Source: Rhodospirillales bacterium Ga0074136
GTDB lineage: Bacteria > Pseudomonadota > Alphaproteobacteria > Acetobacterales > Acetobacteraceae
DNA: 64,000 nt
NCBI GenBank assembly: GCA_001464375.1
Contig: LNEW01000075.1
Span: forward strand, 1 to 64,000
Direction: 5' to 3'
Both the position numbers and the translations under genes were made by a program. The notes below the pieces were generated by a model. That model saw only the letters and a program-made list of their open reading frames with translations. It searched no databases and had not been told where the DNA came from. Numbering within the stretch: position 1 is the first letter of the stretch; each line of letters begins with the position of its first letter. Positions 55,705 to 63,280 of this stretch are shown piece after piece.

Positions 55705-56433
55705 CTACCGCGGCAGTGTCTCGACAAAATACTCGTAGTTGTCGGCGTTCTCGGCGGCGCGCGCCGCATTCTCCTTGGCCAGCGTCAGCGCGCCGGTGGG
55801 GCGATAGGCATGGTCGCGCGTATTGGCGGCCAGATGCGACGCTTCGTGGATCAGGATGCCCCAGCGGCTGTCGGTGCCGTCCATGCGCGCGCGGAAGAAG
55901 GGCGGGCACAGCCCCAGCACCATGTCGCGTTCGCGCGCATAGGCGAAGCGCCCGCCCGGGCAGCCCGGCGGATCGTTGCAGCGAATGGCCACGCCCGCCA
56001 TGTCGTCCAGGCGCGCGGCGGTCAGTTCCAGCGTCATGCGGATGGTCTTGCGCGGTGCATTGCCGAACCAGCGGCGGACATGCGGGTGGTCGGGCTCGTC
56101 GCGCACCAGGCGGACCGCCTCGCGGATGCGGGTGCGCGCCATGGCCAGGGCTTCGTCGATCACCGGCTGGTGGTGTTCGGCCGTGCAGGCGGGGCCGGGG
56201 ATGTCGGCGGGGCCGAGTTCGAGCGGCGGCGGCTTGTCGCGCGGTGCCTCGACCACCAGCACCTGGCGATTGGGCTCCAGCGGCGGTGGCTTGGCGGTCG
56301 GCAATTCCGTGACGGGCGCCGCGCCATCGCTGGGCGGCGATGGCGCGTCCGCTCCCTGGCCCATCGCCGGCAGGGCGAGCAGCCACAGGGTGGCCGCGAT
56401 GGGCCACCGGCGGCGGCGTCGAAGGGTCGGCAT
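55705..56433 (-). CDS. Secreted M35 (aspzincin)-like metallo-endopeptidase, copy A
   Basis: Signal peptide; WGILIHEASHLAANTRDHAYR (HExxH plus downstream D) and ENADNYEYFVETLPR. Confidence 0.75.
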   Translation of the reverse strand: MPTLRRRRRWPIAATLWLLALPAMGQGADAPSPPSDGAAPVTELPTAKPPPLEPNRQVLVVEAPRDKPPPLELGPADIPGPACTAEHHQPVIDEALAMARTRIREAVRLVRDEPDHPHVRRWFGNAPRKTIRMTLELTAARLDDMAGVAIRCNDPPGCPGGRFAYARERDMVLGLCPPFFRARMDGTDSRWGILIHEASHLAANTRDHAYRPTGALTLAKENAARAAENADNYEYFVETLPR

Positions 56434-56503
56434 GGCGCACTGGATCACGCGCCGAACCAAGCACGCTGTCCAGCGCCGCGCCAGACTTGCGCGCGACGGC
56501 TGG

Positions 56504-57361
56504 TCACCGCCCCGGCAGGGTTTCGACGAAGAGCATGAAGTTGTCCGCATTCTCCGCCGCGCGGGCCCCGTTCTCCCGGGCCAGGGCCAGGGCCGCGACG
56601 CGGCCATAGGCGTGGTCCCTGGTCTCGGCGGCGAAATGCGTCGCCTCATGCACCAGGATGCCCCAACGCGTGCCGGTGCCCGTCATGCCGGCGCGGAAGA
56701 AGGGCGGGCAGACGCCCAGCACCTGCCCTTCGTCCAGCCGATAGCTGGCGGCGGGGCGGCCCTGCGCGTCGAACAGCGTGCGCGACATGGTCCGCGCATA
56801 GGCGGTGACCTGGCCGGTGCAGCGCGCCGGGTCGTTGCAGTGGAATTCGACGCCGGCGGTGCTGGCCAGCCGCGTGCCGGTGCGCTGCAGCACAACCAGC
56901 ACCAGCCCGGGCGGCGCGGTGCCGAACCACAGGCGGACATGCGGATGGTCGGGCCGGTCGTGCAGCAGGCGGATGGCGGCGGCGATGCGGGCCCCGGCTT
57001 CGACCAGCGCGGTGTTGACGACAGTGACCTGCTGCGTGTTGCAGGGGGCGGCCGTCGCGTTCGGCAGCGCCGCGCCAGGCGGCGCGGAGGGCTGCACCGG
57101 CGAGAGGATCCGCGGGAGAGACAGGGGCGCCGGGGCTGGTTCGTCGGTGGGTGAAATCACCCGCGGCAGGCCTCGCCCCTGCGCCGGCGGATCCAGGGGC
57201 GAGATCACTTGCGGCATGCGGTGCTGGAGCGGGGGCTCGGGCGGCGGCTTGCCGGGCGCCGGCTGCGCCACGGCCGGCGCGGCCGCCAGCAGCATTGCTG
57301 CGATCACCTGCCAGCGCCGCGCGGCGCTGGCAGGTCGTGGCGACGCCGCACCGGGCGTCAC
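56504..57361 (-). CDS. Secreted M35 (aspzincin)-like metallo-endopeptidase, copy B
   Basis: WGILVHEATHFAAETRDHAYG and ENADNFMLFVETLPGR; GTG start overlaps the Crp stop. Confidence 0.72.
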   Translation of the reverse strand: MTPGAASPRPASAARRWQVIAAMLLAAAPAVAQPAPGKPPPEPPLQHRMPQVISPLDPPAQGRGLPRVISPTDEPAPAPLSLPRILSPVQPSAPPGAALPNATAAPCNTQQVTVVNTALVEAGARIAAAIRLLHDRPDHPHVRLWFGTAPPGLVLVVLQRTGTRLASTAGVEFHCNDPARCTGQVTAYARTMSRTLFDAQGRPAASYRLDEGQVLGVCPPFFRAGMTGTGTRWGILVHEATHFAAETRDHAYGRVAALALARENGARAAENADNFMLFVETLPGR

Positions 57362-58077
57362 TGCCCGTCCCGTGGCCCCGCCGCCACCGCCGCCAGGCCG
57401 GCTTCGTCCAGCACGAACAGGAAGGCCTTCTCGGTGTCGTAGGACACCAGGTTCGAGGCCCGCCAGGCATTCAGGATGGAGATGATGCTGCGCGTCGTCG
57501 CGCCCAGCAGGTCGGCGAGGTCCCCCTGCCGGAACCGCGCGGCGAGCCGCGTGCCCTTGTCGGTCTTCACGCTGTCCGCCTTGAGCAAGTACATCACCTG
57601 CCGCGCCAGCCGCACTTCGAGTGGCGCGAAGGTGGCGTCCTGCAGCAGGCCGAAGGTTCGCCGCAGCCGCATCGACAGCAGCCGCGCCAGCGCCAGGCCC
57701 AGCGCGGGCTCGCTCTGCGCGGTCTCGAGGAAGGCGGTGGCGGGGATGCGCGCCAGCTTCACCTCGCCGATCACCACCGCGTCGGCGCTGCGCGTGGCGC
57801 CATCCAGCACGCCGATCTCGCCGAACACGTCGCCGGCGCGGAATACTTCCACCATCAGGCGCTTGGCGGCGTTGTCCGGGGCGCCCACGCGCACCCGCCC
57901 ACGGCCCTCGAGCACGGCATAGACGGCATCCGGCGCGTCGCCCTGGGAGAACAGCGGGGCGCCATCGGCGGGTGCGACACGGCGCGCGCCCTCGGCCAGG
58001 CGCGCGAGGGCGGGCGGCGGCAGGTCCCGGAACAGCGCGATGCGGCCGAGCTCCTCGGCCAGGCGCGGATCGCTCAT
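57358..58077 (-). CDS. Crp/Fnr family cyclic-nucleotide-binding transcriptional regulator
   Basis: FRAGDVFGEIGVLDGATRSADAVVIGEVKLARI (cNMP pocket) and RQGDLADLLGATTRSIISILNAWRASNLVSYD (HTH). Confidence 0.92.
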   Translation of the reverse strand: MSDPRLAEELGRIALFRDLPPPALARLAEGARRVAPADGAPLFSQGDAPDAVYAVLEGRGRVRVGAPDNAAKRLMVEVFRAGDVFGEIGVLDGATRSADAVVIGEVKLARIPATAFLETAQSEPALGLALARLLSMRLRRTFGLLQDATFAPLEVRLARQVMYLLKADSVKTDKGTRLAARFRQGDLADLLGATTRSIISILNAWRASNLVSYDTEKAFLFVLDEAGLAAVAAGPRDGQ

Positions 58078-59795
58078 TCCATCTCCTCCTCGGCGCCCGA
58101 CCGGCGCAGCGCGTACAAGGGCAGGGACCCGAAGCCCTTCGCCGTCGGGATGCGGCCGGCATAGTCGCAGGCGAGGCCGGACCCACGGGGCAGCAGCGCG
58201 ACCTCGCAGGCGAAGGCTTCGGTCGCGAAGATGCGCCCGGGCGGCGTCACGGGCTCGATCCGCGCGGCGCGCGTCATCGCCCGGCCGGAGAACTTGTCGG
58301 CGTGCTGCACGGCGTCGTGCACCGGCAGAAGCGGGCCGAAATCGATCGCGAAGCGGGGGTGGATCGGCGGGTCCTGCTCGGCCAGCGCGGCGCGCATGTC
58401 GAAGGCGCAGGCGGCGGCGGCGGCGACCTCGTCGAAGGTGATCTGCACGGCGTCGCCCCAGGCGTTGCGGTAGGTCGCCGGATGGCGGTCGAGCGCCGCG
58501 CCCATCGCCGCCAACGGGCCTTCGTAGAAGGTGGCGAGGCCGGCATCGTCCAGCGCGCTGAAGCGCGGCAGGTCGCCGAACAGCACCGCCATGGGCCGCC
58601 GCCGCGCCGGCGGCAGGCCGTTGCCGCTGCTATCGCGCGGCCAGGGCCAGGGAATCTGCAGCGACCGCCCGCCGGCACCGGTCCAGGATGCCACATCGGC
58701 CCCGGTGCCCGCCGCGCCGCGCGCCGGCTGGCCATCCCACGAGGCCACCTGCACCGCCGGCCCGTCGCGGTGGCGCGCATGCAGCCGCGCCAGGCCCATG
58801 GCGCGGCGGCCCGCCAGGGCCAGGTGCAGGTCGTCGTCGGGGAAGGGCCGCTCATCCAGCTGGATGATGCGCAGGTGCGGCAGCAGGGCGCGGAAGCGCG
58901 CCACCCAGCGCTCGCCGGCCGGCGCCACCGAATCGGCCTCGTAGGTGTCGGGGTCGCAGGGCAGCACGGCGGTGGGCGCGATGCCGGCGCGCAAAAGTGC
59001 CTCGACCGCCAGGATGTCGAAGCCGGCGGCGAGCCCGCCGAAGGCCGCGCCGACATGCTCGGCGGCGATGCGGGCGTCGAGCGCGGCGGCGATGCCGACC
59101 TCGAGCGCCTCGTCGTCCTGCCCGGGCTTGGGCATGTGGCCGGTATAGTGCAGCACCGCGGGCACGCGCAGCACATCGACGAAATCCGGCGAAAGGCCGA
59201 GCGCGACGGCCTCGCGCCGCATCTGCCGGCGGGTGGTGGCGCGCGCCGAGATGTCGGCGCCGGCGCGCAATTCGGCTTCCTCCAGCGCGCGGCGGCATTC
59301 CTCCAGCCGGCCGGCGAGCAGCAGGGCCTCGGCCTCGGTTGCGGCCGACCAGTAGTTGCCGGTGTCGCGATGGTTCGCCAGGACCTGGCGGGCGATCATC
59401 GCGGCGCTGTGCGGGTCCCCGCTGAGCAGCCGCAGCGCGGCGGCGTTCACGCCGTGCCAGCCGGAATCGTGGATGCGCCACAGCGCCGCGTAGCGCTGCG
59501 TCGCTTCGGCCAGGAGCGGTCCGCGCACCGCCGCCGGCTGCTCGAAGGCGCGGTCCTTGATGAGGCGCGCGCCGAGCATGCCGATCTCGGGATCGGTTTC
59601 GGCATCCAGCCGCAGCCGGTTGAACAGGTCGAGCGCCATGGCCGTGGCGCCGGCGCGCGCGATGGTCAGCGTGGCGCGATAGCGCAGCGCGGCATCCTCG
59701 GGATGCTCGACCAGCGCGGCCATGGCCCTGTCATGGGCGGAAAACAGGAGGCCCTCGGCCTCCAGCGCCAGGACCTCCGCAAGCGGGTCGGACAT
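58074..59795 (-). CDS. TPR - SLOG-like nucleotide-sensor - class III adenylate/guanylate cyclase domain fusion
   Basis: N-terminal helical repeats; HYTGHMPKPG...GGLAAGFDILAVEALLRAG...SVAPAGERWVARF; C-terminal AVLFGDLPRFSAL, RNAWGDAVQITFD, SGRAMTRAARIEPVTPPGRIFATEAFA. Confidence 0.8.
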   Translation of the reverse strand: MSDPLAEVLALEAEGLLFSAHDRAMAALVEHPEDAALRYRATLTIARAGATAMALDLFNRLRLDAETDPEIGMLGARLIKDRAFEQPAAVRGPLLAEATQRYAALWRIHDSGWHGVNAAALRLLSGDPHSAAMIARQVLANHRDTGNYWSAATEAEALLLAGRLEECRRALEEAELRAGADISARATTRRQMRREAVALGLSPDFVDVLRVPAVLHYTGHMPKPGQDDEALEVGIAAALDARIAAEHVGAAFGGLAAGFDILAVEALLRAGIAPTAVLPCDPDTYEADSVAPAGERWVARFRALLPHLRIIQLDERPFPDDDLHLALAGRRAMGLARLHARHRDGPAVQVASWDGQPARGAAGTGADVASWTGAGGRSLQIPWPWPRDSSGNGLPPARRRPMAVLFGDLPRFSALDDAGLATFYEGPLAAMGAALDRHPATYRNAWGDAVQITFDEVAAAAACAFDMRAALAEQDPPIHPRFAIDFGPLLPVHDAVQHADKFSGRAMTRAARIEPVTPPGRIFATEAFACEVALLPRGSGLACDYAGRIPTAKGFGSLPLYALRRSGAEEEME

Positions 59796-60007
59796 CGGGC
59801 CTCGGCCGCGGGGGTGGAACGCGATCCTAGGGGGGACATGCCGGGCCGGCAACGTGTGCGTGTTTGCGGGATCGGCACCGGCCGGCTCGCCCACCCGGCC
59901 GCTTATGAGGATATGCTGTGGCGGGCCGGGCCGGGACCGCTCTCTCATCGTGCCGCATGGCGCGCCCGCGCAGCCTGTGCGAGAACGCAATCGTTCCGGA
60001 AGACGCC

Positions 60008-61273
60008 ATGCCGCACGACGTATTCCTCAGCTATGCGTCCGCCGACCGCGCCGCAGCGGATGCGGTTTGCGCGGCGCTGGAGACGCGCGGCATCCGCTGC
60101 TGGGTCGCCCCGCGCGACGTGCCGGCCGGCGCCGACTGGGGCGAGGCGATCCTGACCGCGATCGGCCGCGCGCATGCCATGGTGCTGGTGCTGTCGCGCC
60201 ACACCGCGGCCTCCGTGCATGTCAGGAACGAGGTTGTGACCGCGGTCTCGCAATCCCTGGCCCTGGTGCCCGTGCGCATCGAGGATTGCCAGCCGGGCGG
60301 CGCGCTGCGCCTGCACCTTGCGGGGTCGCATTGGCTGAACGTGTATCCCGCGCCGATCGACCAGCATGCCGATGCGCTGGCCGGCGGGGTCCGCCTGGCG
60401 CTGGCGGCGGATGCGACCATCGAGATTCCACGCGCCCAGGCGGCGGCGATGGTGGCCGCGGCGCGGGCCAGTGCCGCTGCCGGCGCGGACCGGGCCGGGG
60501 CGGTGGCGGCGGCGCGCCAGCGGGCCCATCCCGAGCGGCCCGTGGACCCGGGGGCGGTGCGACCCGAACACAAGGCGGCCCCGACTGCGCAGCCCCCGGC
60601 ACGGCGCGACCCGTCCGGGACGGCGCCAGCGAAGCGCGCGGACGGCACGCCAGCGCCGCACCTGCCGACGCCACGGCGCGGGCTCGGCATCGCGGTGGCG
60701 ATCGGCGGGCTCGTACTGCTGTGCGCGGCAGTCGCGGTTGCCTGGTTCTATGAGCCCCGGCTGAAGGGGCTGTTGGGCGCGACAGCCGCGTCGCCGGCGG
60801 ACACGCCTGCCGCACCGCCGGCGGCGCACCTTGTCGCAGCGTCCGGCGCCGCCGCGCCTCCTCCCGCGGGGCTTGGCGCTCCGACGCCGCCGGTGCCCTC
60901 CGCCCCCTCGCCCTTCATCGCCGCCCAGCCGGCATCGCCGCCGCGCAGCATGACGCAGGCGCCGCCGCCGCGCCCGATGCCCGCGCCCGCACGGGCGGCG
61001 CGCGTGATGAATGGCGCGACCACCACCATCGCCCAGTTGTTCGTCGCGCGGGTCGACGACGGGGTCGGGCACGAGGACTGGCTGGGCCAGGCGCAGATCA
61101 CGCCGGGCAATACGGTACTCCTGCGCCCGCCCGCCGGGCAGGGTTGCCTGTTCAACATCCGCGTCGTCTATGTTGGCGGCAGGACCGAGGATCGTCCGGG
61201 AGTTGACCTTTGCGCCGCACCCGATCTGCGTTTCGAGGGAAGCAAGGGCGCCGGTGGACCCTCGCCGCGCTGA
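60008..61273 (+). CDS. Membrane-anchored TIR-domain protein with Pro-rich linker and C-terminal beta domain
   Basis: HDVFLSYASADRAAADAVCAALETRGIRCWVAPRDVPAGADWGEAI; TM GLGIAVAIGGLVLLCAAVAVAWFY; C-terminal NGATTTIAQLFVARVDDGVGHEDWLGQAQITPGNTVLLRPPAGQGCLFNIRVVYVGGRTEDRPGVDLC. Confidence 0.88.
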   Translation: MPHDVFLSYASADRAAADAVCAALETRGIRCWVAPRDVPAGADWGEAILTAIGRAHAMVLVLSRHTAASVHVRNEVVTAVSQSLALVPVRIEDCQPGGALRLHLAGSHWLNVYPAPIDQHADALAGGVRLALAADATIEIPRAQAAAMVAAARASAAAGADRAGAVAAARQRAHPERPVDPGAVRPEHKAAPTAQPPARRDPSGTAPAKRADGTPAPHLPTPRRGLGIAVAIGGLVLLCAAVAVAWFYEPRLKGLLGATAASPADTPAAPPAAHLVAASGAAAPPPAGLGAPTPPVPSAPSPFIAAQPASPPRSMTQAPPPRPMPAPARAARVMNGATTTIAQLFVARVDDGVGHEDWLGQAQITPGNTVLLRPPAGQGCLFNIRVVYVGGRTEDRPGVDLCAAPDLRFEGSKGAGGPSPR

Positions 61274-61578
61274 GCCTGCTCGCCGTACCGGCCTTGGCGC
61301 AGGACCAGCGGCCACGCACCTTCACGCTGATGAATGGCGGGGCCGCCGCGGTGGTCGCCGTGGAGGTGTCGCCGAGCGGCCAGGCCCGATTCGGCGACTC
61401 GATGATCGGCCGGGTCGAATTGCCGCCGGGCAACGCGCTGCACATGACGCCGCCCCCTGGCACGCCATGCCTCAACGACCTGCGCATCCGCTGGGCCGAT
61501 GGCCGCATCGAGCAGCGCGTGCGGGAGGATCTGTGCCAGCCCCAACGCATGATCCGCCTGACCCCATCTGCCAATTGA
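61210..61578 (+). CDS. Small secreted protein with the same beta domain as the TIR protein C-terminus
   Basis: Signal peptide (RRWTLAALSLLAVPALAQ) then NGGAAAVVAVEVSPSGQARFGDSMIGRVELPPGNALHMTPPPGTPCLNDLRIRWADGRIEQRVREDLC; TTG start overlapping the TIR gene. Confidence 0.7.
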   Translation: MRRTRSAFRGKQGRRWTLAALSLLAVPALAQDQRPRTFTLMNGGAAAVVAVEVSPSGQARFGDSMIGRVELPPGNALHMTPPPGTPCLNDLRIRWADGRIEQRVREDLCQPQRMIRLTPSAN

Positions 61579-61588
61579 AGGGAATGCC

Positions 61589-63280
61589 ATGACCGGCGAC
61601 TGGACCGCCCGCGCGGGTACGCGCTTCACGACCCAGAAGCGCCCGGCCATGGGCACGCGCGGCATGGTGGTGACCAACCATCCGCTGGCCTCGGCCGCGG
61701 GCGCCGAGATGCTGGCGGCCGGCGGCAATGCCTTCGACGGCGCGATCGCGGCGCTGTTCACGCTCACGGTGGTCGAACCGATGATGGTCGGGCTGCTGGG
61801 CGGCGGCACGGCACATCTGCGTCTGGCCGACGGCACGCATACCGTGATCGACGGCATGGCGCGCTGCGCCGCCGCCGCACGGCCGGACATGTTCACTCCC
61901 GCGCAGGCGGAGAACCCGCGCAACCTGGAGGCGGTGGGCCGCGTGAACGCGGTGGGCGGGTTGTCGGTGGCGACGCCGGGCAACCTCAAGGCGTGGTGCG
62001 AGATACTTGAGCGCTTCGGCAGCATGCCGCTGGCGGATGTGATGGCGCCGGCGATCCGGCATGCCGAGCGTGGCTATCGCGCCACGCCATACCTGGCGGA
62101 ATGCGCGGCCGAGGCAGCGCCGGACCTGGCCAAGGACCCCGCCATCGCGGCGATCTACCTGCCCGGCGGGTCGCCGCTGAAGCCCGGGCATCGCGTGGTG
62201 CAGGGCGATTATGCGCAGACGTTGAAGACCATCGCGCAGCAGGGCGCGGCGGCGATCGGCGGCGCGCTGGGCGCGGCGGTGGCCGAGGGCATCGCGCGTG
62301 CCGGCGGCATCGTCACCGCCGCGGACATGATCGACTACCGCACCATCGAGCGCGTGCCGCTGCGTGGGCCATACCGCGACGTGGAGGTGGTGTTGCCGCC
62401 GCCGCCGGCGTCGTCCGGCGTGCATGTGCTGCAGATGCTGAACATCCTGTCGGGGTGGGATCTGCGCGCGCTCGGCTTCGGGTCCGCCGACACGCTGCAT
62501 CTGCTGGCCGAGGCGCTCAAGATCGCCTTTGCGGATCGTGCGGCGGCGTCGGGCGATCCGGCCTTCGTGGATGTGCCAGTGGAGCGGCTGGTTTCGGCGA
62601 CGTACGGCGCGGAGCGGCGGGCGCGCATCGACATGGCGCGGGCCCAGGATTGGGCGGCGGGGATCGCCTCCGCCGAGAGCCCGCACACCACGCACATCAC
62701 GGTGGCGGATGGCGAGGGCGGCATCGCCTGCATGACGCAGACGATCAATTCCACCTTCGGTGCGCGCTTCATCGTGCATGGCACGGGGATGATCCCGAAC
62801 AACTACCTGGCAACCTTCGACCCACGGCCCGGGCGGGCCTTGTCGATCGCGGCGGGCAAACGGGTGACGACATCGATGGCGCCGATGATCGTGCTGCGGG
62901 GTGGCAAGCCGGCCTATGCGCTGGGGATGCCTGGTGGGTTGCGCATCTTTGGCTGCGTGATGCAGGGGATGCTGAACCTGGTGGACCACGGCATGAGCCT
63001 GCAGGAGGCGGTGGAGGCGCCGCGCCTGTGGACGCAAGGCGATGCCGTGGAGATCGAGCCGGCCTTCGACGAGGCCGTGCGGGCATCGCTGGCCGCGCGC
63101 GGCCATGTGCTGGCGCGCATGCCGCATATCGGTGGCGGCATGTGCGCGATCGGGTTCGGCGCGGATGGTGCAATGGAGGGTGCCGCCTGCTGGCGCGCCG
63201 ATGGCACCGCGGTCGGCGTCGGTGGCGGGCTTGCGCGCGAGGGCGTCCGCTTCTGGCCGGATGCCGCGGGCGTCCGCTGA
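61589..63280 (+). CDS. Gamma-glutamyltransferase family protein
   Basis: MVVTNHPLASAAGAEMLAAGGNAFDGAIAALFTLTVVEPMMVGLLGGG, HTTHITVADGEGGIACMTQTINSTFGARFI. Confidence 0.93.
   Translation: MTGDWTARAGTRFTTQKRPAMGTRGMVVTNHPLASAAGAEMLAAGGNAFDGAIAALFTLTVVEPMMVGLLGGGTAHLRLADGTHTVIDGMARCAAAARPDMFTPAQAENPRNLEAVGRVNAVGGLSVATPGNLKAWCEILERFGSMPLADVMAPAIRHAERGYRATPYLAECAAEAAPDLAKDPAIAAIYLPGGSPLKPGHRVVQGDYAQTLKTIAQQGAAAIGGALGAAVAEGIARAGGIVTAADMIDYRTIERVPLRGPYRDVEVVLPPPPASSGVHVLQMLNILSGWDLRALGFGSADTLHLLAEALKIAFADRAAASGDPAFVDVPVERLVSATYGAERRARIDMARAQDWAAGIASAESPHTTHITVADGEGGIACMTQTINSTFGARFIVHGTGMIPNNYLATFDPRPGRALSIAAGKRVTTSMAPMIVLRGGKPAYALGMPGGLRIFGCVMQGMLNLVDHGMSLQEAVEAPRLWTQGDAVEIEPAFDEAVRASLAARGHVLARMPHIGGGMCAIGFGADGAMEGAACWRADGTAVGVGGGLAREGVRFWPDAAGVR

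Follow-up and report, generated by a model that had tools for sequence, protein, structure and literature searches.

A locus in the genome of Rhodospirillales bacterium Ga0074136, a member of the Neoroseomonas/Roseomonas group, is explained most economically as a nucleotide-based signalling circuit that ends in transcription, in which a TIR protein, a TPR-S/SLOG/class III cyclase fusion protein (CYC) and a Crp-type regulator would form a relay. The probability of this reading is put at about one half. The locus lies in the window, a stretch of 64,000 nucleotides of contig LNEW01000075.1, and also encodes two M35 (aspzincin) peptidases and a small secreted beta-domain protein (SEC).

Layout and domains of the locus

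All six genes proposed in the sequence-only reading were recovered at the same positions by an ORF and Pfam check (Table 1), with Pfam scores over cut-off for TPR-S, cNMP_binding with HTH_Crp_2, Aspzincin_M35 (twice) and TIR_2. The divergent gap between CYC and TIR is 212 bp (59796-60007), and the start of the SEC ORF overlaps the end of the TIR gene by 64 nt. A syntenic gamma-glutamyltransferase (GGT) gene (61589-63280) starts 10 nt past SEC and may be co-transcribed with TIR. Overlaps of about 4 nt had been noted at the first two junctions of the CYC operon; among the Neoroseomonas species inspected, nearly all share the cyclase/Crp ATGA, but the overlap of Crp and M35 is not conserved, the M35 start ranging from about -3 to +190 nt relative to the Crp stop in these species.

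Table 1. Features of the locus, with positions in the window and the basis of each assignment
Feature	Positions	Strand	Basis or remark
M35 (aspzincin) peptidase A	55705..56433	-	Pfam PF14521 2.6e-24
M35 (aspzincin) peptidase B	56504..57361	-	Pfam PF14521 2.7e-18
Crp-type regulator	57358..58077	-	Pfam cNMP_binding + HTH_Crp_2
CYC (573 aa)	58074..59795	-	Pfam TPR-S + predicted structure
Class III nucleotidyl cyclase domain of CYC, residues 402-565	58101..58592	-	Foldseek + alignment
SLOG domain of CYC, residues 213-382	58650..59159	-	AF2 + Foldseek
TPR-S helical sensor scaffold of CYC, residues 1-208	59172..59795	-	PF20308 + AF2 helices
Conserved sigma70-like promoter of CYC operon, TTGCCG-N17-TAGGAT	59824..59852	-	Footprint, 14 genomes
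Conserved block upstream of TIR, ATGGCGC...CTGTGC.AGAA	59957..60007	+	Footprint, 14 Neoroseomonas genomes
TIR-TM-Pro/Ala linker-beta domain protein (421 aa)	60008..61273	+	TIR_2 1.2e-21; ATG at 60008
TIR domain	60008..60433	+	About 88-95% identical across the genus
C-terminal beta domain of TIR protein	60998..61234	+	Homologous to SEC
SEC	about 61210..61578	+	ORF; frame kept in 8 relatives

The TPR-S domain of CYC was matched by Pfam PF20308 (2.4e-8, 34.9 bits against a cut-off of 27.6). Pfam was silent on the SLOG and cyclase parts that had also been proposed for CYC; structure prediction and Foldseek found both. The AF2 model (pLDDT 81) contains TPR helices, a Rossmann domain and a cyclase domain. 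When the SLOG part was modelled alone (AF2 pLDDT 90.6), its best Foldseek matches were DprA (1.3e-5), the Moco carrier protein (3e-4), LOG and TRPM2/3, all of them SLOG proteins, and the predicted SLOG fold is thus confirmed by structure comparison. Its Gly-rich loop GGLAAGxDIL is conserved in an alignment of relatives, and the domain may bind an NAD-derived or nucleotide ligand. The cyclase part resembles the class III cyclases Ma1120/Rv1900c (E 3e-7) and CyaC by Foldseek, and the class III fold is present together with the catalytic Asp pair, Arg and Lys. D408, W446-G447-D448, R512 and K553 are invariant in the alignment of the 16-member CYC family, in which TPR-S was found in 16/16 members and Guanylate_cyc in 10/16. 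The cyclase is apparently active, judging from these residues. The transition-state Asn position is Thr in CYC. The residues that specify adenine or guanine are absent from the CYC alignment, with Asn at the Lys position and Arg at the Asp position, so the cyclase product is not predictable.

Relatives of the TIR protein all keep E75, which aligns with the Glu in the TIR domain of TIR-STING; the catalytic residue looks intact, and NADase activity is predicted. The ThsB_TIR Pfam match of this domain is just below cut-off (20.5 vs 21.2). The C-terminal beta domain was aligned with SEC by hhalign (97%, E 1e-10). No Pfam family covers the beta domain of SEC, of which about ten copies occur in several proteins of the same genome, some in tandem (other copies on C162, C152, C108 and C91 of G000).

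The Crp-type regulator has the features of a Crp/Fnr regulator, namely a cNMP-binding domain (Pfam, 2.3e-16), a Crp HTH (HTH_Crp_2, 1e-8) and a phosphate cassette, FGEIGVLDGATRSA, and it was aligned with Crp family regulators of solved structure. Counted against a private circuit, the same genome has 3 PF00211 matches (other cyclases) and 11 cNMP-binding matches.

Both M35 peptidases have an apparent signal peptide, and both have the HExxH motif and third-ligand Asp of aspzincins (HEATH...D in B, HEASH...D in A), so that their active residues look intact. Peptidase A was aligned with the peptidyl-Lys metalloendopeptidase 1g12 (3e-15), including HExxH and Asp. A further M35 paralog lies at a separate locus (G000:C120:9097-9471), with counterparts in CYC-positive genomes of the genus and in one CYC-negative genus-mate (G949).

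In the intergenic region, a consensus promoter scan gave nothing above threshold, the conserved promoter-like pair of the CYC operon included, and no clear palindrome that could serve as a Crp operator was found in the footprint. The conserved block upstream of TIR resembles a short ORF, MAxxxxLC(E/Q/K)(N/K). A leader peptide was considered and not retained, the short ORF being in frame with TIR in only 8/14 genomes and 1 nt out in 6. Since the TIR frame is not kept, the block could equally well be an element acting as DNA or RNA.

Conservation within and beyond the genus

The order DH-MFS-M35-Crp-cyclase on one side and TIR-SEC-GGT on the other is syntenic across Neoroseomonas/Roseomonas, with one M35 copy in some species and two in others. 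Within the genus the block behaves as a unit, being found in 15 genomes and missing from 8. TIR is beside CYC and M35 is nearby in 15/15 genus genomes with full CYC, and a TIR of comparable score was found in 0/8 genus-mates lacking CYC, G903 with its partial CYC match being counted among these eight. M35 is absent from 7/8 of them; the exception, G949, has two M35 genes, one of which resembles the paralog at the other locus. If the eight CYC-negative genomes form one clade, which is possible, one gain or one loss could account for the pattern.

Sampling at class level gave CYC relatives in 20/289 genomes, at phylum level in 24/398 and at order level in 20/250, with a few genomes shared between the samples. 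A TIR_2 gene lies within 5 kb of the CYC relative in 15/36 CYC-positive genomes against 0.15 expected (Poisson P 3e-25; 6e-12 counting 8 families), most relatives (21/36) having no TIR nearby. These genomes contain 225 further PF00211 matches, which served as the control; when the lists of cyclases and TIR genes were compared, none of the approximately 150 class III cyclases listed among them had a TIR within 5 kb, and the nearest was about 19 kb away. A Crp-type gene lies within 3 kb of CYC in 12/36 genomes against 0.9 expected, with gene-level checks on some. TIR, a CYC-family (TPR-S/SLOG) protein and Crp occur together in four families (f1, f13, f63 and f168) in differing gene orders, either as TIR-X-CYC with convergent Crp or with Crp divergent from TIR. 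On the CYC tree the TIR label needs 8 changes, at least 5 of them forced by well supported branches, and the Crp label needs 4. In an unrelated genome (G210), a gene for a TIR-TM-C-terminal-domain protein lies about 20-25 bp downstream of CYC. Co-occurrence beyond close relatives, the absence of which had been named in advance as grounds for abandoning the module, was therefore found in the neighbourhood survey. The membership first proposed was too wide: TIR, the TPR-S/SLOG(/cyclase) protein and Crp recur together, but the M35 peptidases are linked to the module only in Roseomonas kin and stand outside the conserved core as a candidate for a lineage-specific output.

The cyclase motifs are lost in several TIR-linked TPR-S/SLOG relatives (L059, L112, L115, L117, L119 and L131, a Novosphingobium plasmid). 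Several sphingomonad-type relatives have lost the motifs and retained TIR and Crp, so the module does not need the cyclase in all cases. The X of TIR-X-CYC is pNTSase1 in L059 (5e-43) and marginally so in L116; the nucleotide-making part of the module seems interchangeable, and the pNTSase1 beside the L059 relative suggests such an exchange. In the Rubritepida cluster (L021), a TIR-nSTAND1-TPR gene is found with a SEC-like secreted protein (85%), M35, CYC and Crp, the M35 and SEC-like genes standing just before CYC.

Other arrangements were also observed. In L127, a cyclase-less TPR-S/SLOG protein is flanked on both sides by TIR genes, one of them fused to a receiver domain. A SLOG-like protein (L128:8406-10199; GITGTRRIDP...LAEGADRLGAEAAL) is encoded in the vicinity of an nSTAND1 gene and a relative of the TPR-S/cyclase protein. 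A mobile origin was considered and rejected, with no relatives in viral contigs and plasmid relatives that are few and all distant.

Relation to known systems

The module had been proposed as undescribed, which is too strong, as TPR-S (PF20308) and its partner pNTSase1 (PF20301) are curated Pfam families. TIR/TPR-S immune systems, with a TPR scaffold reading NAD-derived signals, were reportedly predicted by Burroughs and Aravind in the Journal of Bacteriology in 2020. We know of no experimental test of this kind of system. The window shares with TIR/TPR-S/pNTSase1 systems a TPR-S protein adjoining TIR, and a Crp-type gene is also found in the relatives L059, L112, L114 and L116-L118. It differs in its SLOG-fused, apparently active class III cyclase, its membrane TIR with a beta domain and its M35 peptidases; TIR and TPR-S are present, and no pNTSase1 was found among the window genes scanned with Pfam.

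Thoeris consists of the TIR protein ThsB and the effector ThsA (SIR2/macro/TM-SLOG). Here too a TIR enzyme is paired with a SLOG-domain protein, possibly through an NAD-derived signal, but in the window one polypeptide carries SLOG, a cyclase and TPR, and the output appears transcriptional. No SIR2, macro or TM domain was found on the window SLOG protein by Pfam and AF2. Pycsar consists of the class III-like cyclase PycC and a cNMP-binding effector, often with TIR. A cyclase, a cNMP-binding domain and TIR likewise share one locus in the window, but a Crp-HTH regulator carries the cNMP-binding domain, TIR is encoded separately as a membrane protein and the cyclase is fused to TPR-S/SLOG; CYC gave no PycC match, and only the cNMP-binding part of Crp matched, weakly.

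GcyA/CgrA of R. centenum is a cyclase-Crp pair. To our knowledge, such pairs have no SLOG, TPR-S or TIR partner. A class III cyclase is linked to a cNMP-reading protein in Xanthomonas (XC_0250/XC_0249; PMC3770947), and the window class III cyclase is likewise linked to one. The window peptidases share the HExxH + D zinc site and apparent secretion with M35 aspzincins such as GfMEP (1g12) and AsaP1 and differ as short bacterial forms in a signalling operon. The locus is best called a variant of the predicted kind, its new features being the fused cyclase, the coupling to Crp, the membrane TIR and the M35 peptidases.

Proposed relay and competing explanations

In the proposed relay, the membrane TIR, with a periplasmic beta domain of the kind common to SEC, would be a receptor and a probable NAD-consuming enzyme. 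Its product or activity would be read by the TPR-S/SLOG part of CYC, which may bind an NAD-derived ligand and would gate the attached class III cyclase. The resulting cNMP, of whichever base, would be read by the Crp-type regulator of the same operon, which would adjust how the locus is expressed; in Roseomonas kin the putative targets would include the co-transcribed secreted M35 peptidases. The TIR-to-SLOG step is drawn by analogy from general knowledge of Thoeris, and an inducing signal would presumably enter at the TIR receptor. We infer the order and direction of the signalling steps, as well as any regulation of the peptidases. The stricter version with two messengers, in which an NAD-derived signal from TIR acts through SLOG/TPR-S to switch on the cyclase and cNMP then drives Crp transcription, metallopeptidases included, is tentative and rather less probable than its negation. 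If true, it would amount to a pair like that of Thoeris, with gene regulation in place of cell death as its output.

An anti-phage or conflict system, with TIR as the NAD-depleting effector, the TPR-S/SLOG-cyclase as sensor and threshold setter and Crp as autoregulator, is given roughly half the weight of the relay. TIR, SLOG and TPR-S typify conflict systems; CYC relatives in L049, L128, L056 and L021 have as neighbours nSTAND1 NTPases that carry WD40, TPR or TIR parts; and the pNTSase1 partner of L059, weakly also of L116, fits as well. The locus in Neoroseomonas is, however, a fixed syntenic chromosomal one between housekeeping-type genes, its TIR domain is strongly conserved (Table 1), no relatives were found in viral contigs and few, distant ones on plasmids, and PADLOC has no family for CYC, M35 or SEC. 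The fixed synteny and strong TIR conservation led us to lower the weight of a simple "defence island" reading; with these and the lack of mobile context, defence is possible and the less likely role.

Sensing of the envelope or of extracellular proteins is improbable. The beta domain of TIR and SEC would here sense periplasmic peptides or polymers, TIR would be a scaffold instead of an NADase, and the cNMP-Crp branch would induce secreted M35 for scavenging or remodelling. The homology of the TIR-TM-beta protein with SEC, the M35 genes in the same operon and before CYC in Rubritepida, and the stable conservation across the genus agree with it, but the catalytic Glu of TIR is kept, the module occurs without M35 outside Roseomonas kin, and SEC-like domains are common in the same genome. 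Two independent operons (cyclase-Crp-M35 and TIR-SEC-GGT), adjacent only through slow rearrangement in one genus, would suit the divergent promoters and the flanks conserved in the genus, but this already disfavoured reading is very unlikely, since the TIR linkage reappears, with the genes arranged differently, in other families and classes.

Bacterial TIR systems have mostly been investigated as suicide defences. Through a conserved TIR-SLOG-cyclase-Crp module, NAD-derived signals would feed into classical transcriptional control by cNMP, and a bacterial TIR pathway with a gene-expression output, as in plants and animals, would become open to direct test.
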